Assembly: GCA_025059195.1 (NCBI GenBank)
Contig: JANXDU010000008.1
Coordinates: 1-54,221, forward strand
Direction: 5' to 3'
DNA length: 54,221 nucleotides
Origin: Candidatus Bathyarchaeota archaeon
Lineage (GTDB): Archaea > Thermoproteota > Bathyarchaeia > Bathyarchaeales > Bathycorpusculaceae
The notes beneath the pieces are model-generated. The model saw only the letters and a program-made list of their open reading frames with translations, was not told where the DNA came from and ran no database searches. The number at the start of each line of letters is the position of its first letter. Position 1 is the first letter of the stretch. This document shows positions 35,158-49,914 of the stretch, piece after piece. The position numbers were made by a program, and so were the translations under genes.

Positions 35158-35912
35158 TTAAGAAGATTAAAAACCTAATATCTTTTCTAACAATTTTTCC
35201 CGTAGGCATGACCGATGATTGCCTCGTGGACGCTTCAAACCTTATGTACCTTTTCCCCGTTGTGGGAGCCTTAATCGGCTTTATAGCTGGACTGTTTGCC
35301 TTTGCCTTAACGTATATTTTACCAACCATGATGGTCGGCGTAATGGTTTGCGGTTTAATTCTTTTGCTCACAAGGCTTCATCATATGGACGGGTTGTTGG
35401 ATTTTGGAGATGGTTTAATGTGCCAAGGTCCACCGGAGAAAAAAATCGAAGTAATGCATGATAAACAAACCGGAACAGGTGGCTTCATGTTAGGTGTGGT
35501 GACGTTTTTGGTGACCGCACTATGTATTTCTCACTTCAAGCCTTACATGGTTCTTCAAAGTTTAATAGCATCGGAGACTTTCGCTAAATTTTCCATGGTT
35601 ATTTTGGCTTGGTCCGGTACATCCGCCCATGAGGGAATGAACACCTATTTCATCAATGCTATGCATGGGCACCACAGAAATCTTCGTCTAGGCGCATCTT
35701 TGGCAATTTCGCTCGCAATAGCCTTTCTTACCCTCAGAATTGTCGGCTTAATTGCTCTTGTTGCAAGTATAATCGCGGCACTTGTTATACTTTTAATTTC
35801 GAACAATCATTTCGGAGGAGTTACAGGCGATGTTATGGGAGCATCAAACGAGTTAACTCGTATGGCTTCGTTGCTTTCCATTTTGGCGTTAGCCTCAACA
35901 AGCTACGTTTAG
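35154..35912 (+). CDS. cobS: Adenosylcobinamide-GDP ribazoletransferase (canonical CobS)
   Basis: The 252-residue membrane enzyme joins activated cobinamide (GDP form) to the alpha-ribazole product of CobT. It retains all family motifs: HHMDGLLDFGDG with D79, D83 and D86, then MHDKQTGTGG (residues 101-110), and the C-terminal GGVTGDVMGASNELTR. About six hydrophobic helices are visible. It starts at ATG 35154 in a 4-base overlap with CobT. A second, diverged CobS lies at 41432-42229; this copy is the one expected to be catalytically normal. Confidence 0.92.
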   Translation: MIKKIKNLISFLTIFPVGMTDDCLVDASNLMYLFPVVGALIGFIAGLFAFALTYILPTMMVGVMVCGLILLLTRLHHMDGLLDFGDGLMCQGPPEKKIEVMHDKQTGTGGFMLGVVTFLVTALCISHFKPYMVLQSLIASETFAKFSMVILAWSGTSAHEGMNTYFINAMHGHHRNLRLGASLAISLAIAFLTLRIVGLIALVASIIAALVILLISNNHFGGVTGDVMGASNELTRMASLLSILALASTSYV

Positions 35913-35925
35913 AGGAGACACAAAC

Positions 35926-36585
35926 ATGAGCGCGGCGGTTTCTTGGAGCGGTGGAAAGGAAAGCTGTTTAGCTCTGCACAAAGTTCTCCAAAGGGGAGTT
36001 AAAGTTTCTCATCTTCTAACGTTTGTGTCAAATGGTAGATGCATATCTCACGGTCTCCGTTCAGAACTTATCCTCGCCCAGTCCAAGGCTGTTGATATAC
36101 CGCTGATCCAAAAGGAAGTAACATGGGATACGTATGGGGAAGGCTTTAGAGAAGCACTCGACGAGCTCAAGAAAGCCGGGGTTGATAAACTGGTCTTAGG
36201 TGATATTCTAGAAATACCCGCGCATGAGGGTTGGGTTGACAATGTTTGCAAGGAAATGAACGTGCAGCCAATAAAACCCCTTTGGCACTTGGACCCTTTA
36301 AAAATACTTAACGAGTTTGTCGCTAGAGGGTTCAAGGCTATTGTTGTTAAGGCAAGGGCCAACCTGCTCAACGAAAAATGGATCGGCCGCGAGGTCGACC
36401 AGGCATTCATAACGGAAATAGGGCAGCTTAAGAATATTAATCCATGCGGAGAGCTGGGTGAATATCACACCTTCGTTTACGACGGCCCCCTTTTCAAAAA
36501 GCCTATAAAAATAAAGGGTTTCGAAAAAAGACTCATCGATAATTACTGGTTTTTGGACATAAGCCTTTTTCTTTTTGACAAGTGA
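35926..36585 (+). CDS. Dph6-like PP-loop ATP pyrophosphatase (COG2102)
   Basis: The protein has 219 residues. The N-terminal VSWSGGKESCLAL is the PP-loop that binds ATP, and NPCGELGEYHTFVYDGPLF near the C-terminus is the hallmark of the diphthine-ammonia ligase group. That enzyme performs the last amidation of diphthamide on EF-2. Its position 13 bases after CobS, at the end of the cobamide operon, raises the alternative that it amidates or adenylates something in corrinoid metabolism. Family membership is clear; the substrate is not. Confidence 0.78.
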   Translation: MSAAVSWSGGKESCLALHKVLQRGVKVSHLLTFVSNGRCISHGLRSELILAQSKAVDIPLIQKEVTWDTYGEGFREALDELKKAGVDKLVLGDILEIPAHEGWVDNVCKEMNVQPIKPLWHLDPLKILNEFVARGFKAIVVKARANLLNEKWIGREVDQAFITEIGQLKNINPCGELGEYHTFVYDGPLFKKPIKIKGFEKRLIDNYWFLDISLFLFDK

Positions 36586-36589
36586 TAAG

Positions 36590-36598
36590 CTTTATAAT
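36590..36598 (+). promoter_or_regulatory. TATA box for the glycosyltransferase gene
   Basis: CTTTATAAT is centred near 36594 and predicts transcription at about 36620, right at an in-frame GTG (36621) and 10 bases before ATG 36630. It lies just past the end of the Dph6-like gene and suggests that the cobamide operon ends there. Confidence 0.5.
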
Positions 36599-36629
36599 TA
36601 GCGAGTGTAGAATTCGCGTAGTGCGCAAG

Positions 36630-37784
36630 ATGAAGTCTGCGAAAGTATGCGTTGTGTCGCATCTTTTTTTGCCCCATGTGGGCGGTATAGAGAGGGTTGT
36701 ATATGAACAGAGTAAACGTCTAATTCCAATGGGGTTTAAACCAATAATCGTCACAAGCGACGTGGCTGGAAGGAAAAAATACGTTTTTGATGGGATAGAA
36801 GCCTATTGTTACTCAGCTTTAAAGATTGGTTTCGGACGGGGAATACCCTACGTTGTTCCTAAACCAAGCGGCTACAAAACTTTTTTAAAATGCATCAAAA
36901 ACAGCGACTTAGTGCACGTGCATGGGCACCCTTACCCTTCATCTTATCTTGCCGTAAAAGTGGCGAAAAAATGCTCAAAACCTGTGGTGCTCACTCAACA
37001 CAACACGTTCATAAAATACGGAGTTTTTTGGGATTTCGCCGAAAAACTAAACGACCTCTTAATCGGCAAAAGGGTGTTATTAAACTCTGACAAGGTGATC
37101 GTCGTCAGCAGAGCCACATTAAACTATGTTTTAGAGTTGGGTGCAGATCCAAGTAAAACTGAGATTCTCTACAATGGAGTCGACGTGGACCGCTTCAAAC
37201 CATTAGCATCCAAAGTGGAAGCTAGAAGGCTTCTGGGTCTTCCAGAAAATTCCTTCATTGTTTTAACTGTTAGACGCCTAGTATACAAGAACGGAATAGA
37301 CCTCCTTTTAGAAAGCGCGAAAATCGCTGTGGCCAAAAATCCAAAGCTGCTTTTTCTGGTGGCGGGAAGCGGTCCAGACTTCGAAAAAATCAACTTAAAG
37401 GTAAAGGAGCTTAAGCTTGAAAAAAACTTTAAACTGCTGGGCTTTGTTCCAGATCACAATCTTCCCCTTTATTACAACGCCTCAAACATATTCGTTCTGC
37501 CTTCAAAATCTGGGGAAGGCATGCCCTTAGTTTTGCTTGAAGCTATGGCTTGCGGCCTTCCCGTAGTAGCAACTAACGTTGGAGGCGTACCAGAAATCGT
37601 TGATAAAAACTGCGGGAAAGTGGTGCCGCCGGACGACGCCGCGGCCCTAGCTAGGGAAATATTAGATTTTTCCTATTGCAATTTTTCCGATAGGGGCAAA
37701 GAAGTTAGAGAGATTGTGGAGCGAAAATACAGCTGGGATATAAACGTCAAAAGGCTTATTGAAATATACGAAGAATTTATTTAG
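36630..37784 (+). CDS. Glycosyltransferase family 4
   Basis: The 384-residue GT-B enzyme has an N-terminal acceptor domain with SHLFLPHVGGIERVVYEQSKRL, and a C-terminal nucleotide-sugar domain with NGVDVDRFKP, LLGFVPDHNLPLYYNAS and the E-x7-E region SGEGMPLVLLEAMACGLPVVATNVGGVPEI. It builds glycans for lipids or surface glycoproteins; the sugar cannot be read. I prefer ATG 36630 (or GTG 36621) over the GTG at 36582, which overlaps the upstream stop but precedes the predicted transcription start. Confidence 0.88.
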   Translation: MKSAKVCVVSHLFLPHVGGIERVVYEQSKRLIPMGFKPIIVTSDVAGRKKYVFDGIEAYCYSALKIGFGRGIPYVVPKPSGYKTFLKCIKNSDLVHVHGHPYPSSYLAVKVAKKCSKPVVLTQHNTFIKYGVFWDFAEKLNDLLIGKRVLLNSDKVIVVSRATLNYVLELGADPSKTEILYNGVDVDRFKPLASKVEARRLLGLPENSFIVLTVRRLVYKNGIDLLLESAKIAVAKNPKLLFLVAGSGPDFEKINLKVKELKLEKNFKLLGFVPDHNLPLYYNASNIFVLPSKSGEGMPLVLLEAMACGLPVVATNVGGVPEIVDKNCGKVVPPDDAAALAREILDFSYCNFSDRGKEVREIVERKYSWDINVKRLIEIYEEFI

Positions 37785-37830: not shown

Positions 37831-38514
37831 ATGTCGAAGGTAAACATGGTCTCGTTTGTAATTCCGACGTTAAACGAAGCCGGCACCATAGCGCACATTA
37901 TAGAAACTATAAGAAGGGAGGTAAAATATCCGCATGAAATAATTGTGGTTGACGGCAACTCTACCGATGAAACACAAGATGTTGTTAGGAAATTGAATTG
38001 TTGCCGACTAATAATAGAGCCTAAGCGTGGATACGGCGTTGCCCTTAACACTGGAATAAAACACGCAAGAGGCGACGTGGTTGTAATTGTTGATGGAGAT
38101 GGCACCTACGAGATAAGAGACGTCAATCTCCTTGTGGACTCTCTACTCAAAGAAAACGCAGAGCTCTGTTTAGGTGCAAGAATGAATGGGTTATATGAAA
38201 AATCTATGGACATTACAAACTACATAGGAAACAAACTCATAACGTTCGTCTTCAACCTTTTGTATAAACAAAAACTTGTCGACAGCCAATCTGGGTTCAG
38301 AGCTATAAAACGTTCAGCCTTGGAAGAAGTTAAACTGTCTGAAGAGGATATGGCTTTTGCAACGGAGATGCTTATTAAATTTGCAAAGAGGGGCTTCAAG
38401 ATAATTGAAGTCTCTACAACTTATAAACCGAGAATATACGGCAAATCTAAACTTAAGAGGGTAAGAGCTGGACTAGAAATATTCAAGGTTCTCATCAGAG
38501 GAATAAAAGATTGA
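37831..38514 (+). CDS. Glycosyltransferase family 2, dolichyl-phosphate sugar synthase-like
   Basis: The 227-residue GT-A enzyme opens SFVIPTLNEAGTIAHIIETI, with EIIVVDGNSTDETQD and the metal-binding VIVDGDGTY (DxD-type). The later DSQSGFRAIKR and YKPRIYGKSKLK are typical of dolichol-phosphate mannose/glucose synthases. It would load a sugar onto a polyprenyl phosphate on the cytoplasmic face. It lacks added membrane helices. The DUF1616-like gene overlaps its stop (TTGA), so the two are coupled. Confidence 0.85.
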   Translation: MSKVNMVSFVIPTLNEAGTIAHIIETIRREVKYPHEIIVVDGNSTDETQDVVRKLNCCRLIIEPKRGYGVALNTGIKHARGDVVVIVDGDGTYEIRDVNLLVDSLLKENAELCLGARMNGLYEKSMDITNYIGNKLITFVFNLLYKQKLVDSQSGFRAIKRSALEEVKLSEEDMAFATEMLIKFAKRGFKIIEVSTTYKPRIYGKSKLKRVRAGLEIFKVLIRGIKD

Positions 38515-39029
38515 AGCGTGACTTCCTAAAAAGGGTGAAAAGATTCTACGAAAAAGATAGTTATTTCACCTCAATAACTATTGCTCTAATTATTGCATTC
38601 CTTCTCCTAATACATAGTTATATTGTCTACATGAAGCCGAAGGATTTTGTCTCCTTCTCTATACTTGACCATCAAAAAGAAGCTAAAAATTACCCTGAAC
38701 TTTTAATAATTGGCAAAAATAACACGTGCTGCTTATGGATTGTTGTTGAAAACCACATGGAAAAGAATGTAGCTTTCAAGGTTCTGCTTAAAATAACCAG
38801 TGAACCCCTTCACTCCATTCCCCTTCAAGTGGAGTGTTATGGAAGCTATAGCTCAGCGTCTGGGTCACTGAACAAGGGAGAAAAGTGGGAGAAGCAAGTA
38901 GAAATATCTTTAGACGAAGCTGGCGATTTCTCCTTAGTCTTTGAGCTGTGGATACACAACGAAAAAACGGGTGATTTCGAGTTTTCCGGCAATTTCTGCG
39001 TTCTGCCCCTAAAAGTTAGGGAAGCTTAG
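38511..39029 (+). CDS. DUF1616-like membrane-anchored protein
   Basis: The protein has 172 residues: a basic N-terminus, one hydrophobic helix (about 22-41), then an extracellular beta-rich domain. The stretch YPELLIIGKNNTCCLWIVVENHM resembles the DUF1616 repeat (Pro, Gly, Asn/His spacing), and later strands end with DFSLVFELWIHNEKTGDFEF. Such proteins accompany glycosyltransferases in archaeal surface-glycan clusters. It starts at TTG 38511 over the stop of the upstream gene. It overlaps the convergent Tes-like gene by 14 bases. Confidence 0.65.
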   Translation: MKRDFLKRVKRFYEKDSYFTSITIALIIAFLLLIHSYIVYMKPKDFVSFSILDHQKEAKNYPELLIIGKNNTCCLWIVVENHMEKNVAFKVLLKITSEPLHSIPLQVECYGSYSSASGSLNKGEKWEKQVEISLDEAGDFSLVFELWIHNEKTGDFEFSGNFCVLPLKVREA

Positions 39030-40497
39030 CCTTTGCTTTAACAGCCTTTTTTGGATGCTCTGCTTCTATAGTGGTTCTGTAGATGTTGTTGTATGTGCAG
39101 AAGGGAATTCTTTTCAAATCCGGCGTTACATAGTGGATTACGCATCTTTTAACGCGGTTTATGTCAAAGTTGTATCTATCCATAAAAGCCATGCATCCCA
39201 GCAGAAACATCCTTCTCCTAATACTGCCGAGTGACCTATATGTCGGCGACACGTGAACCCTCAAAACCGTTTTGAAAAACGTGATTATGCCAACCTCTCT
39301 TTGGACAACCCCCCAGTTTAGAGACCGCACCGCCGCAAACAGCAAAGTTAACAGTATCTGGGCTTTTCCTTTTGAGTCAATGGTCTTAGACAACTTTAAC
39401 AATGTGCCAAAGAATTTTTCGAAATTAAGAAGCTTGTTTAAGGGTATTAGGCGGCCATTTTTCGAAACGTAAATCCAATTCACAACGCCGCAGTGGGGGC
39501 TGCACGAAAAGAGCGGCCATGGTTTTTTCATAAACTTTCTCATAACCGTTATGGGCGGCGCCATTATTGAAACTGGGAAAAAGTCTTCGGCCCTTATCTC
39601 GTTTAAAGTTTGCTTTTCCACTTCCTCAGCAAAGGCGGAGTCTGTCCACGCATTTATGAGGTGACTGTTTGCAGCCTTTCCGGTGAAGGCTATAGGTTGG
39701 AACACAAGCCCCCTCACAATATGAGAGTTTTCGGCGGCAAACCTTATAATGTCCCCGATTTCACCGTTGTTTATTCCATTTATTAGAGTGGGAACCAATA
39801 TAACTTCGATGTCGTATTGGCGGCATACCTCGATAACCTTCAGTTTCTCCTTTAAAAGGGCTCTTCCTCTCAATTCTTTGTAGACTTCATCTTTTAAGCT
39901 GTCAAATTGAAGGTATACAATATTTAACCCGCTTTCCTTCAGCTTAGCCGCTAAACTTGGGCTTTTCGCTATTCTTAGCCCGTTTGTTGCGAGAATTGTC
40001 AGAAAGCCCAGTTTATGTGCAAAACGTATTATTTCAGCTAAATCCTCCCTGAGGAGAGGCTCTCCTCCAGAAAAGAGAACAGCCGGGGGTTTGGGGTTGA
40101 GGTGGCTTAAAAATTCCAACATCTTTAAGATTTCATTTTTGCTAGGCTCGTATTCGGTTTCATGTTCAGGAAAACTAGCAAAGCATACTGAACAGTCTAG
40201 GTCACACCTTTTTGTCAAGTCTATAACCGCAATCACCGTTTGGGACAAGTGGTTGTTGCAGAGGCCGCATGAAAATGGACATTTGGAGTTCTCTATCGGG
40301 TCTGCGTTTTTAGCGTAATGCTTAAAGTAGTCAAATTTTTCTACGTAGTTGAAGATTTTTGCGCTTTGCCAATGCGGAATTGAAAAAAATCCATGTTCTT
40401 TACATTTTTTCTCTATTACAATTTTGTCTTCTTCTTGCCTGATTTCCGCTTCAACTTTCTCCAGACATTTTGGGCATATGCTCTCGGTTTTGTTCAT
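39016..40497 (-). CDS. Radical SAM protein of the tetraether synthase (Tes) group
   Basis: The protein has 493 residues. Radical SAM cysteines are C98, C102 and C105 (CDLDCSVC). The N-terminal part has extra cysteines: C8 and C11, C32, and a CPFSCGLCNNH motif (C73, C77, C80), the arrangement of MJ0619-like proteins, shown to couple two archaeol chains into tetraether lipids. SGGEPLLREDL follows as the SAM-binding GGEP motif. The gene overlaps DGGGP synthase by ATGA (40494-40497), which strongly supports a lipid role. Alternative: a pterin-methylating relative, the older annotation for this family. Confidence 0.78.
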   Translation of the reverse strand: MNKTESICPKCLEKVEAEIRQEEDKIVIEKKCKEHGFFSIPHWQSAKIFNYVEKFDYFKHYAKNADPIENSKCPFSCGLCNNHLSQTVIAVIDLTKRCDLDCSVCFASFPEHETEYEPSKNEILKMLEFLSHLNPKPPAVLFSGGEPLLREDLAEIIRFAHKLGFLTILATNGLRIAKSPSLAAKLKESGLNIVYLQFDSLKDEVYKELRGRALLKEKLKVIEVCRQYDIEVILVPTLINGINNGEIGDIIRFAAENSHIVRGLVFQPIAFTGKAANSHLINAWTDSAFAEEVEKQTLNEIRAEDFFPVSIMAPPITVMRKFMKKPWPLFSCSPHCGVVNWIYVSKNGRLIPLNKLLNFEKFFGTLLKLSKTIDSKGKAQILLTLLFAAVRSLNWGVVQREVGIITFFKTVLRVHVSPTYRSLGSIRRRMFLLGCMAFMDRYNFDINRVKRCVIHYVTPDLKRIPFCTYNNIYRTTIEAEHPKKAVKAKAKLP

Positions 40498-41351
40498 GTT
40501 ACTGCCTCAATTATTAGGGCCAAAGGCAGAAGAATCATCGACATGGTGGCTATCCGCTCATTTTTCTTCACAGCGTCCAATGAGATAGAGGGCTTCAATA
40601 GTCGGGCAGAACAGCAAAGGAGCAATATGCTCCAAATTAACATAAGCACCAAGTATTTTTCACTGAAAACCTGGAGCAAGTACGGAAGCGGTGCGAACAA
40701 TGCGCAGCCGATAAAGAATAAGGCGGCTGTTTTAGCTGACTTTTCAACACCAATCTTTTGCGGCAGAGTTGGATATCCCACTTTGCTGTCACCTTCTAGG
40801 CTTATTATGTCCCTCAAAATGTTTCCGCCGATGCTGCCGAGGCAGAGTGGATACATGGCTAAAGAGGCTGTGGTTATTGTTCCAAAGCCTGAGGCTTCAC
40901 CGTGGAGAAAAGTTGTTCCTATTAGGCCTCCAACCAGAATGTTTGCGATGAAGCCGGATTTCCGCTTTATAAATGCGGAATAAACTATTAACAAAACAGA
41001 GTCTATTAATACAATTAGAAAGCACAGCCAGTTAATGAGAAACGCTTGAAGTAATCCTAAAGAGAAAAATGCTGCCGAAATGTGAACGGCTATCTTTGGA
41101 GAGATTTCCCCGGCTGGAATTGGTCTGTTGGGCTTGACCAATGCATCCCCATCCCTGTCAAAGAAATCGTTTATCGCAAATCCAGCTGAGCCTATAAAAG
41201 CCATTGAGAAAAATGTTAGTAACGCTGTGCTAGCGTTTAACGTTTCTGGCTTTAGAGCCAAAAGGGTTAGTAGTGCTGTTCCTCCAGTCATAGGCCAATA
41301 TGGGAGCCTTAAAAGTTTCAAAATTCCTCTGACTGTTTTTGCGAAGGGCAT
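40494..41351 (-). CDS. Digeranylgeranylglyceryl phosphate synthase (UbiA family)
   Basis: The 285-residue prenyltransferase has about eight membrane helices. The first Asp-rich motif is NDFFDRDGDALVKPNRPIP (near residue 62), and the second is RDIISLEGDSKVGYPTLP (near residue 180), both characteristic of archaeal DGGGP synthase. It adds the second geranylgeranyl chain to make the core archaeal diether. It is first in a two-gene unit with the Tes-like gene, so the operon covers making the diether and probably joining diethers into tetraethers. An AGGGAG ribosome site precedes the ATG at 41351. Confidence 0.88.
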   Translation of the reverse strand: MPFAKTVRGILKLLRLPYWPMTGGTALLTLLALKPETLNASTALLTFFSMAFIGSAGFAINDFFDRDGDALVKPNRPIPAGEISPKIAVHISAAFFSLGLLQAFLINWLCFLIVLIDSVLLIVYSAFIKRKSGFIANILVGGLIGTTFLHGEASGFGTITTASLAMYPLCLGSIGGNILRDIISLEGDSKVGYPTLPQKIGVEKSAKTAALFFIGCALFAPLPYLLQVFSEKYLVLMLIWSILLLCCSARLLKPSISLDAVKKNERIATMSMILLPLALIIEAVT

Positions 41352-41431: not shown

Positions 41432-42229
41432 ATGAAGGCCTTGAAGATTTTTAAAGATTTGGTAGCCTTCCTCACAATAATTCCATTAACAAAAGAGGAA
41501 AGCTTCATTGAAACTTCCGCAAGGTATATGTTCTTATTTCCAATCTTTGGAGGGATCATCGGCCTCCTTGCAGCAACCTACTTTCAACTCTGCACAGGAC
41601 TGCTATCCTTTTTTGCGCCTTTTTTGCAGAGGTTTTTAGGAATTATAGGTGACCTATTTGTGAGGGGCTTTCCGTCGGCGGCGACAGTTTCCTTTTTGCT
41701 TGCTTTGACAGGGCTTCAACATTTCGATGGACTTGTCGATTTAGGTAACGCTTTAGGATTTAAAAACCTCGAAGAAAGAAGGTTTATGGCTCATGCTTGG
41801 ACCATAACCCATAGGGGAGCTTTCCTGGCAATTTTTGTGGAATTTTTGGCGTTTCTCGGAATCTTTTTGACAAAATCCAGTGTAGTGTTTAAAGCTTTGA
41901 TTTGCGCTGAAGTTTCGGCGAAGCTGGCGATGGTTACGTTAACGTTTTTCGGGAAACCCGCTTATGGAGGACTTGGCGCACTGTTTGTTAAGCTTAACAA
42001 GAGAAACAAATCCATCATCCTATCATACGCCATTTCTTTCCTCATAGTCTTTCCACTTTTCGGGCTGTTAGGCTTAATCTTTTTGTTTGTAAGCTTCGCT
42101 GCGGGCTTTTTAATGGAAAAGCTTTCGGAGAAAACTTTCGGCGGCACTTCAGGCGATGTTCTCGGCGCAACCAACGAGCTTGTTAGGGCTTTATGCTTGC
42201 TTATGACAGCTTTAGAGGTTGCATCATGA
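41432..42229 (+). CDS. CobS paralogue with altered active-site motifs
   Basis: The 265-residue membrane protein of the CobS family keeps the overall helix pattern and the C-terminal GGTSGDVLGATNELVRA. Key catalytic stretches differ from the canonical copy at 35154: the acidic motif reads QHFDGLVDLGNALG (D99 and D103 kept, third Asp replaced by N106, Gly by Ala), and the usual M-[KRH]-D-x3-G-x2-G motif is replaced by AHAWTITHRGAF. It could be inactive, regulatory, or act on another head group. It is co-transcribed with CobY (ATGA overlap), then a SPASM radical SAM gene and DUF362. Confidence 0.8.
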   Translation: MKALKIFKDLVAFLTIIPLTKEESFIETSARYMFLFPIFGGIIGLLAATYFQLCTGLLSFFAPFLQRFLGIIGDLFVRGFPSAATVSFLLALTGLQHFDGLVDLGNALGFKNLEERRFMAHAWTITHRGAFLAIFVEFLAFLGIFLTKSSVVFKALICAEVSAKLAMVTLTFFGKPAYGGLGALFVKLNKRNKSIILSYAISFLIVFPLFGLLGLIFLFVSFAAGFLMEKLSEKTFGGTSGDVLGATNELVRALCLLMTALEVAS

Positions 42230-42855
42230 AACTTCCTGCGCTTATTATGGCTGGTGGGAAGGGTAAAAGATTCTGTTCAAACGTTGAAAAACCTTTAGCC
42301 CCTTTTATGGGTAAGCCTCTAATAGACTGGGTTGTTAAGGCGATTCAGTCCGCAAGTAAAATTTCAGATTTCTACATCGTGACGAGCCCGGACACGCCGA
42401 AAACTGAGGAGAAATGTCTCCGTGAAAGTTTAAAGGTTATTCACACCGATGGAAGAGGCTACCATGACGATTTGAAACAAGCTATAATAAAAGGCAAGCT
42501 ATTCCACCCAGTTCTAACGGTTTCTTCAGATCTTCCCGCCCTAACCGGAAGCTTCATTGATAAAATAGTCTCAATTTACGAACATTGCGGGAAACCGGCC
42601 CTAACAGTTTTAGTTCCCGTGGAAAAGTTTAGGAGAGTTGGGCTTTCCACCCCTTCCCTTTACAATTATGGGGGCTTATGCTACGCGGTTTCCGGCGTCA
42701 ACGTCATTGATGGCTCTAAAATATCCGAGGGAGAAATGGATCAAGAAGTCCTCATTCTGGAGGACGTTGAAGCCGTCATAAACGTAAATAGTTATGAAGA
42801 CCTTAAAAAGGCTGAACACTTCCTCTCAACCATTTCGAGAACAGAAACATTTTAA
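42226..42855 (+). CDS. cobY: Adenosylcobinamide-phosphate guanylyltransferase, archaeal CobY
   Basis: The 209-residue nucleotidyltransferase begins PALIMAGGKGKRF, the G-G-x-G-x-R GTP-binding loop, with EKPLAPFMGKPLIDWVV next and VSSDLPALTG as the metal-binding Asp segment. CobY replaces bacterial CobU for guanylylation in archaea and makes adenosylcobinamide-GDP for CobS. ATG 42226 overlaps the stop of the CobS paralogue. A related MobA-like molybdopterin role is less likely because of the neighbours. Confidence 0.88.
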   Translation: MKLPALIMAGGKGKRFCSNVEKPLAPFMGKPLIDWVVKAIQSASKISDFYIVTSPDTPKTEEKCLRESLKVIHTDGRGYHDDLKQAIIKGKLFHPVLTVSSDLPALTGSFIDKIVSIYEHCGKPALTVLVPVEKFRRVGLSTPSLYNYGGLCYAVSGVNVIDGSKISEGEMDQEVLILEDVEAVINVNSYEDLKKAEHFLSTISRTETF

Positions 42856-42903
42856 CCATAGCGCTTAACCAATTAAATCAACATCGACGAAAAAGGGAGC
42901 ATC

Positions 42904-44313
42904 TTGAACCTCTTAAAACACAGCAACTTCTGGAACGCTGTGATGACTTCCCCGTTTGTCAAGAGGATGTTAGCGCTTTCCATAAGACGGTGTGATGGTT
43001 GTGGTGGGCAAGTGCTGGACATAGCCCTCGATAAATATGTCGGTTCGGACACGCAAAAGTGCAAAAAATGTAGTTTTCCGGCGCGTGTGATAATTTTTTG
43101 GGTTGAGTTCCTAAGGAGAAGCCTAGCCATTGAAAGGCAAAAGGTTGAGAAAATTTTAGCTGACCCCTACGCGAGAAGGGGAATAAAAAGTGTTGTTAAA
43201 ACATTCCTTTATTTTGGCGTCAAGAAGCCCTTAACAGTTTATGCGCCCTTTCTTGTCGTTTGGGACTATACGTACAAGTGTAATTTACGCTGTAGGCATT
43301 GCTACTCAAACGCTGGTGCATCAGCGATGAAAGAGCTGAACACGGAGGAGGCCCTAAACGTTGTAGACCAACTTGCAGATTTCGGTGTTGTTTCCCTAGC
43401 GTTTTCAGGCGGAGAACCATTAATGCGGAAGGACTTCTTTGAAGTCGCAAAGCACGCCGTCGATTCCGGCCTATATGTTTCATTGGCCACTAATGGGACT
43501 TTGCTGAACAAGCAAACAGCTCAAAAATTGAAGAAAACGGGAATCCATTACGTTGAAATCAGCGTTGACGGAAGTGATGCGAAACTCCACGACGAGTTTA
43601 GAGGAGTTCCAGGCGCCTTTGAATTGGCAATAACGGGGTTAAAAAATTGTGTTGGGCAAGGCCTCTGCGCTTCGGTTGCCGTAACGGCCACCAAGAAAAA
43701 CTTCAAGGACATACCAAAAATATTGGAGCTATCGGAAAAAATTGGCGCCAAAAGGTTTGTGTTGTTTAACTTTGTCCCTACGGGAAGGGGGGTTGACGTG
43801 GTTTCTCAAGATCTTTCACCTAAAGAAAGGGAGGAAGTGATGCTTTTCTTGCTCGATAGGTTGTTATCGGGTTCTAAGGTGGCGATTTTGACCACAACTC
43901 CACAGCTAGCTAGAGTTGCTGTGTCCCATCAAAGAGGGGTCTCCGACGAAGTTTTCCTTCCAATGGCGCATATGCAAACAAGCAAGGTGAGCAAAAAAGC
44001 CGTCGCTTTGGCTGATTTCATCGGCGGATGCGGGGCTGGAAGGCTTTATTGCTCAATTTCTCCGGAGGGAGACGTTCATCCATGCGTTTTTCTTCCAATA
44101 AAGATAGGCAACTTGAAAACTGACAACTTTGGAGAACTGTGGCTTCACTCTGAGATGTTCCAAGCTTTAAGGAACAGAGAAAACCTCAAGGGATCTTGTG
44201 GAACCTGCTCTTTCAAGTATATTTGTGGTGGGTGTAGAGCAAGAGCCTATGCATACACCCGTGATTTTCTCGCCCCCGATCCTGGATGCATACTTGTCGA
44301 AGAGTGCACTTAG
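42904..44313 (+). CDS. SPASM-type radical SAM protein with N-terminal Cys4 module, unknown
   Basis: The protein has 469 residues. Residues about 25-60 hold two Cys pairs (C30/C33, C53/C56), probably a zinc site. The radical SAM motif is CNLRCRHC (C126, C130, C133), followed by FSGGEPLMRKDFF. The C-terminus carries a SPASM/twitch-like set (GGCGAGRLYCSISPEGDVHPCVFLP, then CGTCSFKYICGGCRARAYAY and a final Cys near residue 462), suggesting one or two auxiliary clusters. Relatives modify peptides or tetrapyrroles. GGGAG lies 4 bases before the TTG start. No peptide substrate gene is visible nearby; DUF362 follows with no gap. Confidence 0.75.
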   Translation: MNLLKHSNFWNAVMTSPFVKRMLALSIRRCDGCGGQVLDIALDKYVGSDTQKCKKCSFPARVIIFWVEFLRRSLAIERQKVEKILADPYARRGIKSVVKTFLYFGVKKPLTVYAPFLVVWDYTYKCNLRCRHCYSNAGASAMKELNTEEALNVVDQLADFGVVSLAFSGGEPLMRKDFFEVAKHAVDSGLYVSLATNGTLLNKQTAQKLKKTGIHYVEISVDGSDAKLHDEFRGVPGAFELAITGLKNCVGQGLCASVAVTATKKNFKDIPKILELSEKIGAKRFVLFNFVPTGRGVDVVSQDLSPKEREEVMLFLLDRLLSGSKVAILTTTPQLARVAVSHQRGVSDEVFLPMAHMQTSKVSKKAVALADFIGGCGAGRLYCSISPEGDVHPCVFLPIKIGNLKTDNFGELWLHSEMFQALRNRENLKGSCGTCSFKYICGGCRARAYAYTRDFLAPDPGCILVEECT

Positions 44314-45279
44314 ATGAAAAAAACAGAAGGAAAAAAAGTTGTTTTAATAACTGAAGTTAAAAGTGAAAGTCTCGAGAAAAAGTTAGATGAAATCCTTCGA
44401 AAGGTTGGTTTCAAAGCTAAGGGCAAAGTGCTTGTAAAACCAAACATGTGCATGCCGGGATACGTTCCCGGCGCAGTGACAAGCCCTAAAGTCATTTATT
44501 ATATTGTAAGACTGCTTAGGAAAACATCTGAGGAAGTTATAGTTGGAGAATCGGACGGCTACAACTACTCATGTGATTTAGCCTTTGAAAAGACCGGGAT
44601 CAAAGATGCTGCCGAAAAAGCTGGCGGCAAAACGATAAACCTTTCAAGGGACAAGTTGGTTCAAGTAAGTTTCAAAGATAAAGAATTCAAAATTAAACGG
44701 CTGTTTCTTCCTAAAACATTGTTTGAAGTGGACTCGGTGGTTAATGTACCTATAATGAAGACCCATGAATTCACAGTTTACAGCGGAGCCTTAAAGAACC
44801 TTTTCGGGTTAATCCCTGACAGAAAAAGGATTTTCCTACATCCCCACCTCAACGAGGTTTTGTTCACGTTGTACGAGCTAACCAAGCCAATGACAGTGAT
44901 GGACGCCTTAACAGCCATGGAAAAGAACGGGCCAACTAGGGGAACGCCGGTGGAAATGAACCTCGTCTTAGCAAGCAAATGTCCACTTGCCTTAGACGTG
45001 GTTGCAACGGAAATCATGGGGCTGGATTGGGAGAAAATCAGCCATTTAAGTTATATTGCTCAGAAAACCAAATTTGATAGACAAAACGTGAAAGTTGTAG
45101 GGGATAGCGCGAGATATTCTCGGAAATTCGCCACTCCCGTGGTGGATTTACCGGTGGAAATGCAGTTAAAAATATACCAACATGCTTTGTTGACAAAGAT
45201 GTTTTTCTCAAATCCAAATTTTGTTAAGATCCTTCAGAAATTCGTCTCACTTTACAGAAGTTTAAGAGGATCTACTTAG
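44314..45279 (+). CDS. DUF362 family protein
   Basis: The protein has 321 residues and lies directly after the stop of the SPASM radical SAM gene. Conserved features include VLVKPNMCMPGYVPGAVTSPKVI, VVGESDG, VVNVPIMKTHEFTVYSGALKNLFG and DRKRIFLHPHLNEVLFTL, all DUF362 marks. No ferredoxin domain is fused at the end, unlike many family members. The family is poorly understood; its repeated link with radical SAM and iron-sulfur proteins suggests redox or assembly work. The stop overlaps that of the convergent glycosyltransferase by 8 bases. Confidence 0.8.
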   Translation: MKKTEGKKVVLITEVKSESLEKKLDEILRKVGFKAKGKVLVKPNMCMPGYVPGAVTSPKVIYYIVRLLRKTSEEVIVGESDGYNYSCDLAFEKTGIKDAAEKAGGKTINLSRDKLVQVSFKDKEFKIKRLFLPKTLFEVDSVVNVPIMKTHEFTVYSGALKNLFGLIPDRKRIFLHPHLNEVLFTLYELTKPMTVMDALTAMEKNGPTRGTPVEMNLVLASKCPLALDVVATEIMGLDWEKISHLSYIAQKTKFDRQNVKVVGDSARYSRKFATPVVDLPVEMQLKIYQHALLTKMFFSNPNFVKILQKFVSLYRSLRGST

Positions 45280-46471
45280 CCAAAACCTCGTTGTAGACTT
45301 CTAGAACTTGTCTAGCCACTTTTTGCCAGCTGAAATTCTTTTCAACAGTTTTTCTGCCCGAAAGTCCCATTTCGTGTGCAAAATCGGGATTTTCCAGAAG
45401 ATAAAGAATTCCTTCAACTAAGCCTTGAAGGTCTTGAGATTTTACCAAAAGGCCGTTTTCGCCGTGGTTAACGACTTCTGGGATACCTCCAACGTTGGTG
45501 GCTACTACTGGTAAGCCGCTTGCCAAAGCTTCTAACAGCGTGAAAGGCATGCCCTCATAAACTGATGGAAGCACAAAAACCTCAGCTGCTTGATAAAGTT
45601 TAGGCAACTTATCATCCGGAGTATATCCTAGGAAAAAGACGTTTTTTTCAACTTTCAGTTTGCTAGCCAACACCCTCAATTCCTTCTCTTCGTTGCGAAA
45701 GCCTTTCCCAGAAATTACAAACTTTACGTCTTTGATTTTCCGCAGAATAAAAGGAACGGCCTTCAAAAGTGTCCGTAAGCCTTTTCTGCGGTATAAACGG
45801 CCCACATAAAGCACAACCTTGTCATCGACGAATCCCATCTCTCTTTTGACCTTGTCTTTTTCATCCGTTGGCTTAAACTTGTTAATGTCAACTCCGTTGT
45901 ATATCACATGCACCTTGTTTGCGCTCACATCGTAGTGTTCTAGAAGTTCCATTTTTGTATGAGTGCTTACTGCGATTATTTTGTCTGAACGTTCAAGCAG
46001 TTTATGTTCAAAAAACCTTAAGAGGCTGTTGAAGCTTCTAACGATCTTTTCGTTTCCATTAAGCCCAAGGAAGGGTTCATGTTTAAGCGCGTCACCCTCA
46101 CTTTTCCATGTAGTGTGAACTGTTGTAACTAACGCTTCCCCCAAGTTTTTGGGAACTGCAAAACTCGGGACTAATGGAAGATTAACGTGCACAACTTCTA
46201 TCGGAAACTTTCCACTAACCTCCATTAGCTTTTTAGAGGAGTGCACATAAAAAAGAGCAGACTCCAACAGCGGAATTTTAATGGTTTTAATTCGTAAAAC
46301 TTTAACTTTCCCGCTAGGCTGTTCACCCTTCACGTTTTCTTGACTGTTCTTAGTAATAACATATACAAGGTTTTCAAGGCGAGCAAGGTTTCTCGCTAGA
46401 TAGTAAACATACGATCCCGTTCCACCTATTAGGGGAAGATACTCTGGAGTTAAGAAACATACGTTAACCAA
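45272..46471 (-). CDS. Glycosyltransferase family 4
   Basis: The 399-residue GT-B enzyme has an N-terminus with FLTPEYLPLIGGTGSYVYYLARNLAR, and a donor domain with VIYNGVDINKFKP, VLYVGRLYRRKGLRTLL, FFLGYTPDDKLPKLYQAAEVF and the E-x7-E segment YEGMPFTLLEALASGLPVVATNVGG. It starts at TTG 46471 and overlaps the upstream family 2 gene by 22 bases, making three coupled glycosyltransferases on this strand. Likely role: surface or lipid-linked glycan assembly; donor and acceptor unknown. Confidence 0.88.
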   Translation of the reverse strand: MVNVCFLTPEYLPLIGGTGSYVYYLARNLARLENLVYVITKNSQENVKGEQPSGKVKVLRIKTIKIPLLESALFYVHSSKKLMEVSGKFPIEVVHVNLPLVPSFAVPKNLGEALVTTVHTTWKSEGDALKHEPFLGLNGNEKIVRSFNSLLRFFEHKLLERSDKIIAVSTHTKMELLEHYDVSANKVHVIYNGVDINKFKPTDEKDKVKREMGFVDDKVVLYVGRLYRRKGLRTLLKAVPFILRKIKDVKFVISGKGFRNEEKELRVLASKLKVEKNVFFLGYTPDDKLPKLYQAAEVFVLPSVYEGMPFTLLEALASGLPVVATNVGGIPEVVNHGENGLLVKSQDLQGLVEGILYLLENPDFAHEMGLSGRKTVEKNFSWQKVARQVLEVYNEVLAK

Positions 46472-47496
46472 TTCTGGTCCTTTCCCCTATCAGCCTTTAA
46501 GGCTTTTAAAACTGTGATGGTGCCTCCCAACGTCCAAGCCATTGCCCTAACGAAATAAACAATAACAAGCAACATGGCTGCGGGATCTCTAAAATACAGC
46601 GAAATCCTCATTGCGTAAATAACGTAATAAGTTAACAAAAAAACTAAAGTAAAAGCCGCTATGCACAGCATAACTCTTGCTTTTTCCAATGTTAATCCCA
46701 AAATTACCGATACAAAAATAAAAGCCAACAGAACGGGTTGAAGGTTCATTCCAAAATCTGTGATCTTGTCACCCCTCACGAGTTTCGGCCTTTTAAAGTA
46801 AAGCTTTAGGGTGTTTTTGCCGTATTGCAGTTGTTGTTTAAAGTATTCGAGCCATGTTGGCCTGTTGAAGTGGTAACATTTTGCTTCAGGCTCAAAAACC
46901 AATTTGTATCCTTTGTCTGTTACCTTGTATCCGAAGTCCGTATCGTATTGTGTAGGAAGACTTTCATCGAAGCCTCCGACTTCCTCTATGACGCATCGTT
47001 TAACAAGCAGATTCATCGTTGCCAAGCGTTTGGCATCACTGCTTTTCCGAAGTCTGTCATACCTATATTTAATGTCGTATCCGATGCATCTAGGTAATGC
47101 GTGTTGTGGGTTCCACGTTTCAACTCCCCCACCGACTCCTCCCACCTGCGGGTCTTTCAAATGTTTTACAAGTGTGCGTAACCAATTTTTTTCAACTTTT
47201 ACGTCTGCATCCACTATCGCGATTAATTCTCCTTTTGCGATTTTTACCGCGTAATTGTAAGCGGACGGCGCGTTTGATGGTCTTACAATAACCTTTGCTG
47301 GATATTTTTCGGCTATCTTCACCGTAGAGTCCTTTGATCCTCCATCTACGATTATTACCTCAAGAAGGTTTTTCGGGTAATCCAATTCAAAAATCGATCT
47401 TAAACACTCGCCGATGGTTCGTTCATTGTTAAAGGTTGTAATAATAAGTGATACTTTGGGAAAGTTCTCCCATGGTTCCATATCAAACGCCAACAT
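46450..47496 (-). CDS. Glycosyltransferase family 2 with C-terminal membrane helices
   Basis: The 348-residue protein has a GT-A domain: VSLIITTFNNERTIGECLRSIF, VIIVDGGSKDSTV, and the metal motif IVDADVKVEK, then FDESLPTQYDTDFGYKV. After about residue 240 there are three hydrophobic segments, so the enzyme is held at the membrane and could act on a lipid-linked acceptor. ATG 47496 overlaps the upstream gene by 14 bases; an internal ATG at 47481 would avoid overlap and is nearly as likely. Confidence 0.85.
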   Translation of the reverse strand: MLAFDMEPWENFPKVSLIITTFNNERTIGECLRSIFELDYPKNLLEVIIVDGGSKDSTVKIAEKYPAKVIVRPSNAPSAYNYAVKIAKGELIAIVDADVKVEKNWLRTLVKHLKDPQVGGVGGGVETWNPQHALPRCIGYDIKYRYDRLRKSSDAKRLATMNLLVKRCVIEEVGGFDESLPTQYDTDFGYKVTDKGYKLVFEPEAKCYHFNRPTWLEYFKQQLQYGKNTLKLYFKRPKLVRGDKITDFGMNLQPVLLAFIFVSVILGLTLEKARVMLCIAAFTLVFLLTYYVIYAMRISLYFRDPAAMLLVIVYFVRAMAWTLGGTITVLKALKADRGKDQNWLTYVS

Positions 47497-48184
47497 ACGC
47501 TGTCAAAATAGATATGAAGATTCTAATGCCGTCCTTGAGGGGAGTCAGCTTAGATTTTCCATAAGTCCTCTGCTCAAACCTTATTGAGACCTCCTTAGAT
47601 TTTAAGCCAATCTTTAAAGCTTTTACCAACATTTCAGACTCGATTTCATACCCATTAGACTTTAGACGCATTTTCCTTAAGATGGCTGATTTAAATGCAC
47701 GATAACCTGACTGAGAATCCGTAGTAGCTTTCCCGGTGAGCACTCTAATTAAGAAGTTGAACAATTGGACTCCAATCTTGTTCAGCCTGTTGGAGAAAAC
47801 ATTTTCCTTGCATAAAAAGCGGGATCCAACGACGAGGTCTACCTCATTCTTTAATACAGGCTCTAAAACCTTTGGAAGTTCCTCCGGTTTATGCGAGCCA
47901 TCTGAGTCCAAGGTTACAATTATTTCGCCCTTCGCCTTTTTGAACCCCAGCCTAAGTGCGTAGCCTTTTCCCATATGCCTTTTAAGGCGATAAACCTCAA
48001 CCTTCTTGCTTTTCGAAATTTCTAGAGAATTGTCTGTGGAGCAGTCGTCGATGACCAGTATTTCGTAGGGTAGACACATTTTTTCAACGGCGGCTTTAAC
48101 CCCTTCAATTACATTGCCCACTGTGGGCTCTTCATTAAAGACTGGAATGACTATGGAGATTAACGGTTTTTCGCGCATCACCAT
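47483..48184 (-). CDS. Glycosyltransferase family 2, polyprenyl-phosphate sugar synthase-like
   Basis: The 233-residue GT-A enzyme shows SIVIPVFNEEPTVGNVIEGV, ILVIDDCSTDNSLE, the DxD-type VTLDSDGSHKPEEL, then TDSQSGYRAFK and YGKSKLTPLKDG, as in dolichyl-phosphate mannose synthases. It is a paralogue of the enzyme at 37831-38514. It begins the three-gene unit on this strand; starts at 48184 and 48178 are both possible. GCATATAAT read on the minus strand (48221-48229) would place its transcription start about 14 bases upstream. Confidence 0.86.
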   Translation of the reverse strand: MVMREKPLISIVIPVFNEEPTVGNVIEGVKAAVEKMCLPYEILVIDDCSTDNSLEISKSKKVEVYRLKRHMGKGYALRLGFKKAKGEIIVTLDSDGSHKPEELPKVLEPVLKNEVDLVVGSRFLCKENVFSNRLNKIGVQLFNFLIRVLTGKATTDSQSGYRAFKSAILRKMRLKSNGYEIESEMLVKALKIGLKSKEVSIRFEQRTYGKSKLTPLKDGIRIFISILTAYVGV

Positions 48185-48202
48185 GTCTTTAGAGGAAGAT
48201 GC

Positions 48203-48229
48203 TTATAAATCATGTCAAACATTATATGC
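48203..48229. promoter_or_regulatory. Divergent promoter with two TATA boxes
   Basis: CTTATAAATC at about 48202-48211 read forward predicts transcription near 48232, two bases before ATG 48234. GCATATAAT read in reverse (48221-48229) predicts transcription near 48198 for the glycosyltransferase at 48184. The boxes are interleaved, so only one direction may fire at a time. Confidence 0.5.
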
Positions 48230-48233
48230 AGGG

Positions 48234-48791
48234 ATGGAAAACGGTGAGATTATAGGCAGAATTAAGGAAAACGTTCTTAGAAGGGTTAACACTGACAAAA
48301 TTATGTGGTTTTCTATGTGGTTTCTTGTTTCAATAACAACTTTTGGGTTAGCTTTATTTCCAATGATTTATCAATTAATTGAAAGAAGAAATAGACATTT
48401 TCATCGTCAAAAGGAACTGGAGACTTTTGCCATTTCCGTCCTAAAGAGAAAAGGGATAAACATTGAAGTTGAACCAGAAAAGCTTCGTGAACGAAACTCC
48501 TTCTTGTGGACGCTGTCCATAGTTTTGATTGTTCCAATTTTTGCTGTAGCCTTTTTCCTTTCTAAAGATCTGCTTTTACATGAACGGAGACAAGTCTCTT
48601 TATTTAAGAAGATTCTCCCAGACGAGGACGTTGCAGAACAAAAAATTGATTTGAAATTTTACGTAGCGATAACTCTGGCAACGCTGGGGGTGGGAATAAT
48701 CTACTGGCTCTACAGGGTTTTCAACGACTATAACAACCATTTTAAGGAACAATGGAAAATTGAGGATAGGATGGTTGAACTGCTTGGATGA
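48234..48791 (+). CDS. Three-helix membrane protein, unknown
   Basis: The protein has 185 residues from ATG 48234, the start predicted by the TATA box for a leaderless mRNA; the in-frame ATG at 48183 lies upstream of that promoter. Hydrophobic segments occur at about residues 22-43, 89-108 and 143-162, separated by charged loops with many Arg, Lys and Glu. A polar loop (RRNRHFHRQKELETFAISVLKRKG) suggests a cytoplasmic helix pair. I do not recognise a family. It precedes and slightly overlaps the CobD-like gene. Confidence 0.65.
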   Translation: MENGEIIGRIKENVLRRVNTDKIMWFSMWFLVSITTFGLALFPMIYQLIERRNRHFHRQKELETFAISVLKRKGINIEVEPEKLRERNSFLWTLSIVLIVPIFAVAFFLSKDLLLHERRQVSLFKKILPDEDVAEQKIDLKFYVAITLATLGVGIIYWLYRVFNDYNNHFKEQWKIEDRMVELLG

Positions 48792-49914
48792 GAAAATTCA
48801 ACCCAGACAACACGGCGGCGACGTGTGGGCTTTAACGCGAAAATACGGCATACCCCTTGAAAAAATTGTCGATTTCAGCGCTCCTATAAATTTCCTTGGG
48901 CCGTCTCCAAGGGCGATAGAAGCTGTAAAACGGTTTGCAGAGCTCATTAAGTTCTATCCCGATCAAAATCCGTCGGATCTCAAGAAAGACTTGTGTGACT
49001 ACGTTGGAAGGATAAATCCAGAGAACGTCGTGCTTGGAAATGGGTCTATGGAACTGATATATCGGTTTGCCGAAACCCTCATTCGTGGAACGGAAGCTTT
49101 AATTCCGGTTCCATCCTTTACAGAATATGAAAGAGTTAGCTTGCTGGTTTCTGCGAAGCCTAAGCTGGTGGACATGCTTCCAGAGTTCACCTTAAACGTT
49201 GACGTAATTAAAGGATTAATTAATAGTAATAAAAACACCCGTTTATTGTTTATTTGTAACCCTCACAGCCCATCTGGGAGACTCTTCAATCGCAGTCTGA
49301 TTTTAGACTTGGTTGAGTTTTGCCTTGAAAGGGGAGTTTATGTTGTTTTAGACGAAAACTACATAGACTTCGTTGAACCCGTTGAAAAATACACGCTAGC
49401 TCATTATGTGGATAAATATGAAAACATCTTTGTGGTTAGGTCGTTCTCAAAGTTTTTTGGAATGCCGGGCATAAGGATAGGCTATGGAATAGGCTGCAGG
49501 AAAATTGTCCAAAAACTGGAAGTGGCTAAGCAACCTTGGTGTATAAATTCCTTGGCCATAGTGGCGGCTCGTGAAGCGTTAAAAGACAGCGAGTATATTA
49601 AAAAGACAAAAGTGCAAATTAGAGAAGAGCGGAAAAAGCTGGCCGATCTACTGAACGGAACAGGCGTTTTAAGAGTTTATCCCTCTGAAACAAACTTTTT
49701 GCTTGTTAAAATTCTTAAAGATGGTTTTACTGCGAGGGATTTAAAGGAAAGGCTTGAGGAGAGAGGGATTCTCATAAGAGACTGCGGAGATTTCCACGGT
49801 TTAAACGAAAGTTACTTCAGGGTAACCGTCAGATGCCTAGAGGAAAACTTAATGCTTGTAAACATGATTAAAGGGCTTCTTTTAAACGGGAAATCGCAAA
49901 AAATTAGTGCTTAA
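48784..49914 (+). CDS. cobD: L-threonine-O-3-phosphate decarboxylase-like PLP enzyme (CobD)
   Basis: The protein has 376 residues from TTG 48784, which fits the family's habit of starting about ten residues before HGGDVWALTRKYG. This fold-type I PLP enzyme has DFSAPINFLGPSP, LGNGSMELIYRFAE, DENYIDFVEP and the PLP-lysine region VVRSFSKFFGMPGIRIGYG. CobD makes aminopropanol phosphate for the nucleotide-loop linker; histidinol-phosphate aminotransferase is the main alternative, but CbiB next door favours CobD. TTG 48760 and 48775 are other possible starts. It overlaps convergent CbiB by 33 bases. Confidence 0.82.
   Translation: MDEKIQPRQHGGDVWALTRKYGIPLEKIVDFSAPINFLGPSPRAIEAVKRFAELIKFYPDQNPSDLKKDLCDYVGRINPENVVLGNGSMELIYRFAETLIRGTEALIPVPSFTEYERVSLLVSAKPKLVDMLPEFTLNVDVIKGLINSNKNTRLLFICNPHSPSGRLFNRSLILDLVEFCLERGVYVVLDENYIDFVEPVEKYTLAHYVDKYENIFVVRSFSKFFGMPGIRIGYGIGCRKIVQKLEVAKQPWCINSLAIVAAREALKDSEYIKKTKVQIREERKKLADLLNGTGVLRVYPSETNFLLVKILKDGFTARDLKERLEERGILIRDCGDFHGLNESYFRVTVRCLEENLMLVNMIKGLLLNGKSQKISA

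Follow-up and report, generated by a model that had tools for sequence, protein, structure and literature searches.

A diverged CobS paralogue at a predicted tetraether-lipid locus in Bathyarchaeia, with second copies of CobD and CbiB

The window analyzed here is a 54,221-nucleotide stretch from a Candidatus Bathyarchaeota archaeon (contig JANXDU010000008.1; source genome of 1.37 Mb, 92% complete), and its central feature is cobS2 (41432..42229, + strand), whose 265-residue product is a diverged CobS-family membrane transferase as judged by family profiles, motifs, and an AlphaFold model. Exactly two CobS proteins are encoded in the genome, confirming the pair reported by a first-pass annotation of this DNA, and the other, the canonical cobamide synthase CobS1 (35154..35912, +), adjoins CobT (34030-35157), which CobS2 does not, and serves as our comparison copy. 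The cobS2 gene shares an ATGA overlap with cobY (42226..42855, +), which encodes the sole CobY of the genome, a nucleoside triphosphate transferase of the type 2 clade. A gap of 48 bases separates cobY from a radical S-adenosylmethionine (SAM)/SPASM gene with a TTG start (42904..44313, +), which is abutted without a gap by a gene for a DUF362 protein (44314..45279, +). The open reading frames, their coordinates, the translational overlap, and the gapless DUF362 junction were all as that annotation had claimed. Absent from it were the family identity of the radical SAM protein, the cobD2 and cbiB2 genes at 48.8-50.9 kb, and two genes on the other side of cobS2, namely a second UbiA prenyltransferase gene (40494..41351, −), which is divergent from cobS2 at a distance of 80 bases, and tes (39016..40497, −), which overlaps ubiA by 4 bases.

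By profile, CobS2 scores 95.9 bits against PF02654 (cut-off 23.2) and 113.6 bits against TIGR00317 (cut-off 110), the latter being a marginal pass, as compared with 149.2 and 177.2 bits for CobS1. Its AlphaFold model is all-helical (predicted local distance difference test, pLDDT, of 91.8), and a search for a solved relative in the PDB gave no fold match at E < 0.001 and no sequence match either. As a helical membrane protein of the same family as CobS, the adenosylcobinamide-GDP ribazoletransferase that joins adenosylcobinamide-GDP with alpha-ribazole or its phosphate, CobS2 keeps the HxDxxxD part of the first CobS motif as well as the loop 6 GxxGDxxG (G238, G241, D242, and G245), and its C-terminal SGDVLGATNEL stretch is intact. 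However, it differs from CobS in that the first motif reads H97-x-D99-x3-D103-x2-N106 (DFGDG in CobS1 becoming DLGNA), with Asn for the third Asp of HxDxxxDxxD (D106N) in 34/34 orthologues compared. Moreover, at the end of loop 2, the second motif MHDKQTGTGG is changed to AHAWTITHRG, such that MxDxxxGxxG is replaced by AHxW; here, Met is Ala (M120A) in all 34 sequences and the Asp (D122) is retained in only one of them. The losses and the intact C-terminal stretch had been pointed out for the window's copy, and since the motif changes are common to all 34 orthologues, they are a product of neither chance nor decay. In the Salmonella CobS, D82, D86, and D89 are each essential, as Ala at any one of them abolishes function, with D89 being the equivalent of the Asp lost in CobS2 and GxxGDxxG being the other key motif (PMC8092220).

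Among 101 related genomes, CobS2 orthologues were found in 35, with 43-75% identity to the window's copy, and the canonical CobS that these relatives also have is ~35% identical to it. The two proteins form separate clades with 100/100 branch support, and CobS1 accompanies CobS2 in adequately sampled genomes, the fragmented G025 being the exception. In a scan of 398 genomes of the phylum, among the matches listed, CobS2 scores 334-412 bits and the next-best CobS 167 bits, with no CobS2 outside the window's order and all of them confined to two of its families. Pairwise ratios of nonsynonymous to synonymous substitution (dN/dS) are 0.08-0.12 for CobS2 and 0.05-0.14 for CobS1, which are rough figures given that dS is near saturation. 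The first-pass annotation had offered, as one explanation, that CobS2 is a duplicate in decay next to the true CobY; this is ruled out by orthologue conservation, purifying selection, synteny, and the uniformity of the motif changes. If the idea is widened to a catalytically dead subunit, the loss of residues that are essential in the Salmonella enzyme is in its favor, but a dN/dS of about 0.1, as in CobS1, the conservation of the replacement residues themselves, and a confidently and completely predicted fold make a decaying or dead copy very improbable.

Two further enzymes of the cobamide nucleotide-loop branch have second copies in the window. These are CobD2 (48760..49914, +), a threonine-phosphate decarboxylase-like enzyme dependent on pyridoxal phosphate (PLP), and CbiB2 (49882..50853, −), a diverged adenosylcobinamide-phosphate synthase recognized by PF03186 and by its altered motifs. 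In the trees, CobD1 and CobD2, and likewise CbiB1 and CbiB2, split with 100/100 support. CobD1 adjoins CbiB1, and CobD2, which lies within a block of lipid genes (see below), tracks CobS2, with five such genomes also retaining a separate CobD1 beside CbiB1. The Asn of the NPTG motif, which in the CobD-type fold usually touches PLP, is Ser (N170S) in 20/20 CobD2 sequences. Against PF03186 (cut-off 34.4), the window's CbiB2 scores 247.6 bits, within a range of 244-263 bits for CbiB2 and 284-307 bits for CbiB1. Its motif changes are ENxxDG to ENLxDF, NTLDS to N[TIV]LDG, and NAGW to NHGW, and the uniform substitutions comprise G162F, S189G, A254H, and M296R; the resulting DF and DG are each present in 16/16 CbiB2 sequences, whereas CbiB1 and five bacterial and haloarchaeal references have DG and DS.

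We then counted CbiB and CbiC in 61 related genomes (18 with CobS2 and 43 without), where absences are those of family searches in draft genomes. CbiB2 is found in 17 of the 18 genomes with CobS2 and in none of the 43 without it (17/1/0/43; Fisher p 3e-14, shared ancestry ignored), and CbiB1 tracks CbiC, which we take to mark synthesis of the corrin ring (10/1/1/49; p 1e-9, again ignoring shared ancestry). Six genomes with both CobS2 and CbiB2, the window's included, lack CbiC, and CbiB2 is found in 0/5 genomes that bear CobS1 but are free of CobS2. Because CbiB2 co-occurs with CobS2 even in the absence of CbiC, the second set follows CobS2 and not corrin synthesis. In comparison with the cobamide nucleotide-loop assembly (CobD-CbiB-CobY/CobU-CobS), the same four families are thus represented in the same genomes, but CobD2, CbiB2, and CobS2 each form a clade of their own, carry uniformly changed motifs, lie in a lipid cluster, and persist without CbiC.

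Some observations on CbiB and CobS in the relatives stand apart from this. Another radical SAM protein, ~33% identical to that of the window, frequently lies close to CbiB2 (L187 9375-12356 in G006; also L198, L199, L194, L208, and L184), and an Amidohydro_3 amidohydrolase is located beside CbiB2 in G006 and G029. In G029 (L185 1637-6108), CobD2 and CbiB2 are separated by three genes for B12-binding radical SAM proteins, and these enzymes are possibly lipid-modifying. CobS1 and CobY1 are found without CbiB or CobD in G005, G026, G036, and G076 (with CobT adjoining in G005, G026, and G076), so cobinamide salvage there would proceed by another kinase or another route. In G058, a genome 90% complete, CbiC is present but no CobS was found.

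The remaining member of the four, CobY, is similar over its full length to Methanocaldococcus jannaschii CobY (PDB IDs: 3RSB and 2MZB; E 1.7e-25, residues 4-200). It scores below the cut-offs of NF045495 (113.4 of 250 bits) and TIGR00454 (145.6 of 174.7 bits), although the latter is reached by no genome among the 101 relatives, the CobY beside CobS1 included. CobY forms two clades (types 1 and 2), yet the differences are mild, with nothing comparable to the motif changes of CobS2, CbiB2, and CobD2. Coupling of CobS to CobY is by itself ordinary, as a similar overlap occurs in a haloarchaeal cobamide operon. Since the CobY types are exchanged in one genus and a single CobY serves both CobS proteins in other genomes (both detailed below), CobY is, by its phylogeny and distribution, predicted to be shared or exchangeable, with the enzymes before and after it being specialized.

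Beyond CobD2 and CbiB2, the surroundings of CobS2 are those of a predicted tetraether-lipid locus. The window's Tes, the tetraether lipid synthase (Zeng et al., 2022; PMC8941075), passes the equivalog test of NF045702 (484.7 bits versus a cut-off of 450). The UbiA next to it resembles geranylgeranylglyceryl phosphate (GGGP) geranylgeranyltransferase, and UbiA and Tes adjoin CobS2 in 33/34 loci, the remaining one being at a contig end; in many relatives, a sugar-nucleotide epimerase/dehydratase gene is placed between UbiA and CobS2. Kept on the Tes side are the glycosyltransferases GT4a (36582..37784, +) and GT2a (37831..38514, +), together with a DUF1616 protein beside Tes (38511..39029, +). 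A second conserved block, located directly after CobS2-CobY, contains the radical SAM and DUF362 genes, the three glycosyltransferases GT4b (45272..46471, −), GT2b (46450..47496, −), and GT2c (47483..48184, −), a small membrane protein kept beside CobD2 (48114..48791, +; weak DUF6693/DUF4234 match, with the true start probably further downstream), and CobD2. This block is inverted in some genomes and lies elsewhere in G035, G004, and G015, and so the two blocks are separable, yet both are retained. Conservation of gene order, which the first-pass annotation had named as a check, is seen in dozens of genomes of two families, and in the second family the genes are still clustered even though its CobS2 shares no more than 41-43% identity with that of the window. 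In the literature searched, we found no description of a Tes neighborhood with CobS2 and CobY, and none that assigns a paralogue of CobS or CbiB to lipid synthesis. The window's UbiA is not the genome's only candidate GGGP geranylgeranyltransferase, as another UbiA (G000:C7:117006-117746; L254 1438-2310) scores higher to those models and beats the cluster copy on NF009523; this other copy is likely the housekeeping enzyme.

Such retention of the lipid gene order in both families, with CobS2 identity down at 41-43%, speaks against CobS2 being an ordinary second cobamide synthase with relaxed motifs that adjoins lipid genes by inherited synteny only. While such redundancy would fit the narrow pass of the TIGR00317 equivalog cut-off and the ordinary cobamide genes in the wider region, it also sits poorly with the Asn in place of an essential Asp and the AHxW, which vary little or not at all among the 34 orthologues, and with the coexistence of canonical CobS1. 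We therefore regard it as improbable.

Comparable doubt attaches to a Kennedy-like route without CbiB2, in which CobD2 would give aminopropanol phosphate or ethanolamine phosphate, CobY its GDP derivative, and CobS2 would pass the phospho-aminoalcohol straight on to the lipid, leaving CbiB2 for cobinamide salvage. Both the Kennedy-type pathway and the archaeal IPCT-DIPPS pathway combine a nucleotidyltransferase with a membrane phosphotransferase, and by analogy the second set would share this nucleotide activation followed by membrane transfer; nevertheless, CobS is by sequence not a CDP-alcohol phosphotransferase (PF01066), and GTP rather than CTP would be expected. CobD2 is part of the conserved lipid block, and the phosphatidylserine decarboxylase family PF02666 was found in none of the 61 related genomes, so the usual ethanolamine-lipid route is missing. 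Yet PF02666 is also missing from the CobS2-free genomes, and as a marker of CobS2 genomes its absence is ruled out. Likewise, with PF01066 in 96/101 genomes, CobS2 cannot be a substitute for the CDP-alcohol phosphotransferases, and CbiB2 is co-inherited with CobS2 and bears uniform changes of its own. On this evidence, we consider the route without CbiB2 to be unlikely, at a level only marginally above that of redundancy. Outside these relatives, PF02666 is present in M. jannaschii, H. volcanii, and M. acetivorans.

The radical SAM protein of the second block has an N-terminal Cys4 module (C30, C33, C53, and C56), a CX3CX2C motif (C126, C130, and C133), and a SPASM domain, and thus the Cys4 and SPASM features of the earlier description are both present. 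The NCBIfam models that score highest for it describe heme-type enzymes, and their cut-offs are far from reached. In a methanococcal homologue (L105), positions 123, 127, 370, 372, and 438 are occupied by Cys, and Phe326, Ser334, and Asn351 are present as well; these residues match the published Methanothermococcus okinawensis Gms save for residue 346 (Li et al., 2024; PMC11186832), and we used it as a stand-in for that enzyme. Published Gms homologues were delimited by E < 1e-50, > 30% identity, and > 420 residues (PMC11186832); against L105, the 469-residue window protein has the same domain order and gives 41% identity over 468 columns with an E-value of 2.7e-131, all within those limits. 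The Gms ligands C123, C127, C370, and C438 have equivalents in the window protein, though the auxiliary cluster I (AuxI) residue C372 corresponds to Ala378, with C383 nearby, and the N-terminal Cys4 is an extra. In the tree, the protein falls in a broad archaeal group away from the Ahb-type, within its own Bathyarchaeial clade. From these comparisons, it is assigned to the family of Gms, the glycerol monoalkyl glycerol tetraether (GMGT) synthase, with the conversion of GDGT to GMGT as its candidate reaction. The description of it as uncharacterized thus holds only in part. A second Gms-family paralogue in the same genome (G000:C7:79844-81295; L077 7815-9341; 508 residues) is ~40% identical to it and belongs to another clade.

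Taken as a whole, we favor, tentatively and at just short of an even chance, a reading in which CobS2 would be the last enzyme of a second nucleotide-loop-type line, CobD2-CbiB2-CobY-CobS2, that works with the tetraether-lipid genes. The basis for this is family membership, conservation, co-inheritance, uniform motif changes, and synteny with Tes, UbiA, the Gms-family protein, and glycosyltransferases, while we infer every chemical step, the acid R, and the acceptor, with the order of steps taken from the known reactions of the four families. CobD2 would produce an aminoalcohol phosphate by decarboxylating an amino-acid phosphate, and CbiB2 would join the amine of this product to a carboxylic acid (R-COOH) as an amide. 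CobY would then cap the phosphate with GMP from GTP, and, in the membrane, CobS2 would have an acceptor hydroxyl displace GMP to yield R-CO-NH-aminoalcohol-phosphate-acceptor. Because lipid genes adjoin, a tetraether lipid, or the glycan on it, is the probable acceptor; given that genomes devoid of CbiC retain the line, a corrin ring of the cell's own making is improbable as R. The altered CbiB2 sequence suggests an altered acid, and that of CobS2 an altered acid or acceptor, and an unaltered CobY is in keeping with this, as only the phosphate end has to be recognized by it. Among the candidates for R is a uronic-acid headgroup; in the Black Sea, hexose-glucuronic acid archaeol showed a correlation with Bathyarchaeota (r = 0.51; PMC6586073), which we take as a lead and not as evidence of the acid's identity. 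The GDP-activated lipid or cofactor pathway reusing CobY-CobS logic that the first-pass annotation proposed is accordingly supported by context and conservation, albeit not proven.

Several observations weigh against the second line. CobS2 still passes the TIGR00317 cut-off, the Salmonella substitutions were D to A and not D to N (PMC8092220), G011 (75% complete) has CobS2 without CbiB2, and the co-occurrence statistics take no account of shared ancestry. Moreover, a type 1 CobY adjoins CobS2 in G039, G054, and G013 (L060, L063, and L068), all of one genus, and G013 has a type 2 CobY beside CobS1 (L180), meaning that the types are exchanged; several near-complete genomes, one of them a single contig, have one CobY for both CobS proteins. 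Together, the single CobY and the type exchange suggest a common donor, and so perhaps a corrinoid one. The main rival follows from this, namely that CobS2 is a specialized corrinoid enzyme that would use the same adenosylcobinamide-GDP (AdoCbi-GDP) donor as CobS1 with another acceptor, either a lower-ligand nucleoside or a membrane-anchoring lipid, with CobD2 and CbiB2 rebuilding AdoCbi-phosphate from imported cobyric acid. In keeping with it, CbiB2 is placed after CobT-CobS1-CobY in G013, BtuFCD, CobT, and CobS1 share the region of CobS2 in the window (within the same 25 kb as CobD2 and CbiB2), and there are the B12-binding radical SAM genes of G029. However, genomes with CobS1 only mostly lack CbiB and CobD, and hence salvage there needs neither; the alterations of CbiB2 fall at positions conserved in bacteria and haloarchaea alike, suggesting that its acid has changed; and other lower ligands would require no new CobD or CbiB. 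We thus judge a corrinoid donor to be a serious but rather unlikely alternative.

For the second line itself, an altered B12-finishing set beside the genes for membrane-spanning lipids, confined to one order of Bathyarchaeia, suggests from its gene content that B12 chemistry has been reused for a lipid or cofactor conjugate. The broadest form of this proposal, that the whole late B12 branch (CobD, CbiB, CobY, and CobS) is reused in Bathyarchaeia for a non-corrin acid, giving GDP-activated aminoalcohol-phosphate amides joined to tetraether lipids, a class and a route not described so far, seems to us possible though doubtful. The reason for the membrane siting of late B12 steps, common to all producers, has been described as an unanswered question (PMC8092220), and a natural set of paralogues associated with membrane-lipid genes allows non-cobamide CobS chemistry to be probed directly. 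Bathyarchaeia are abundant, and a defined gene set makes their headgroup biosynthesis testable. For annotation, CobS2, CbiB2, and CobD2 are at present taken as cobamide genes, which leads to false B12 predictions.

Elsewhere in the window, a BtuD-like ATPase (32753-34033) carries a C-terminal extension of ~170 residues without a Pfam match, and upstream of it are two tandem BtuF-like genes.

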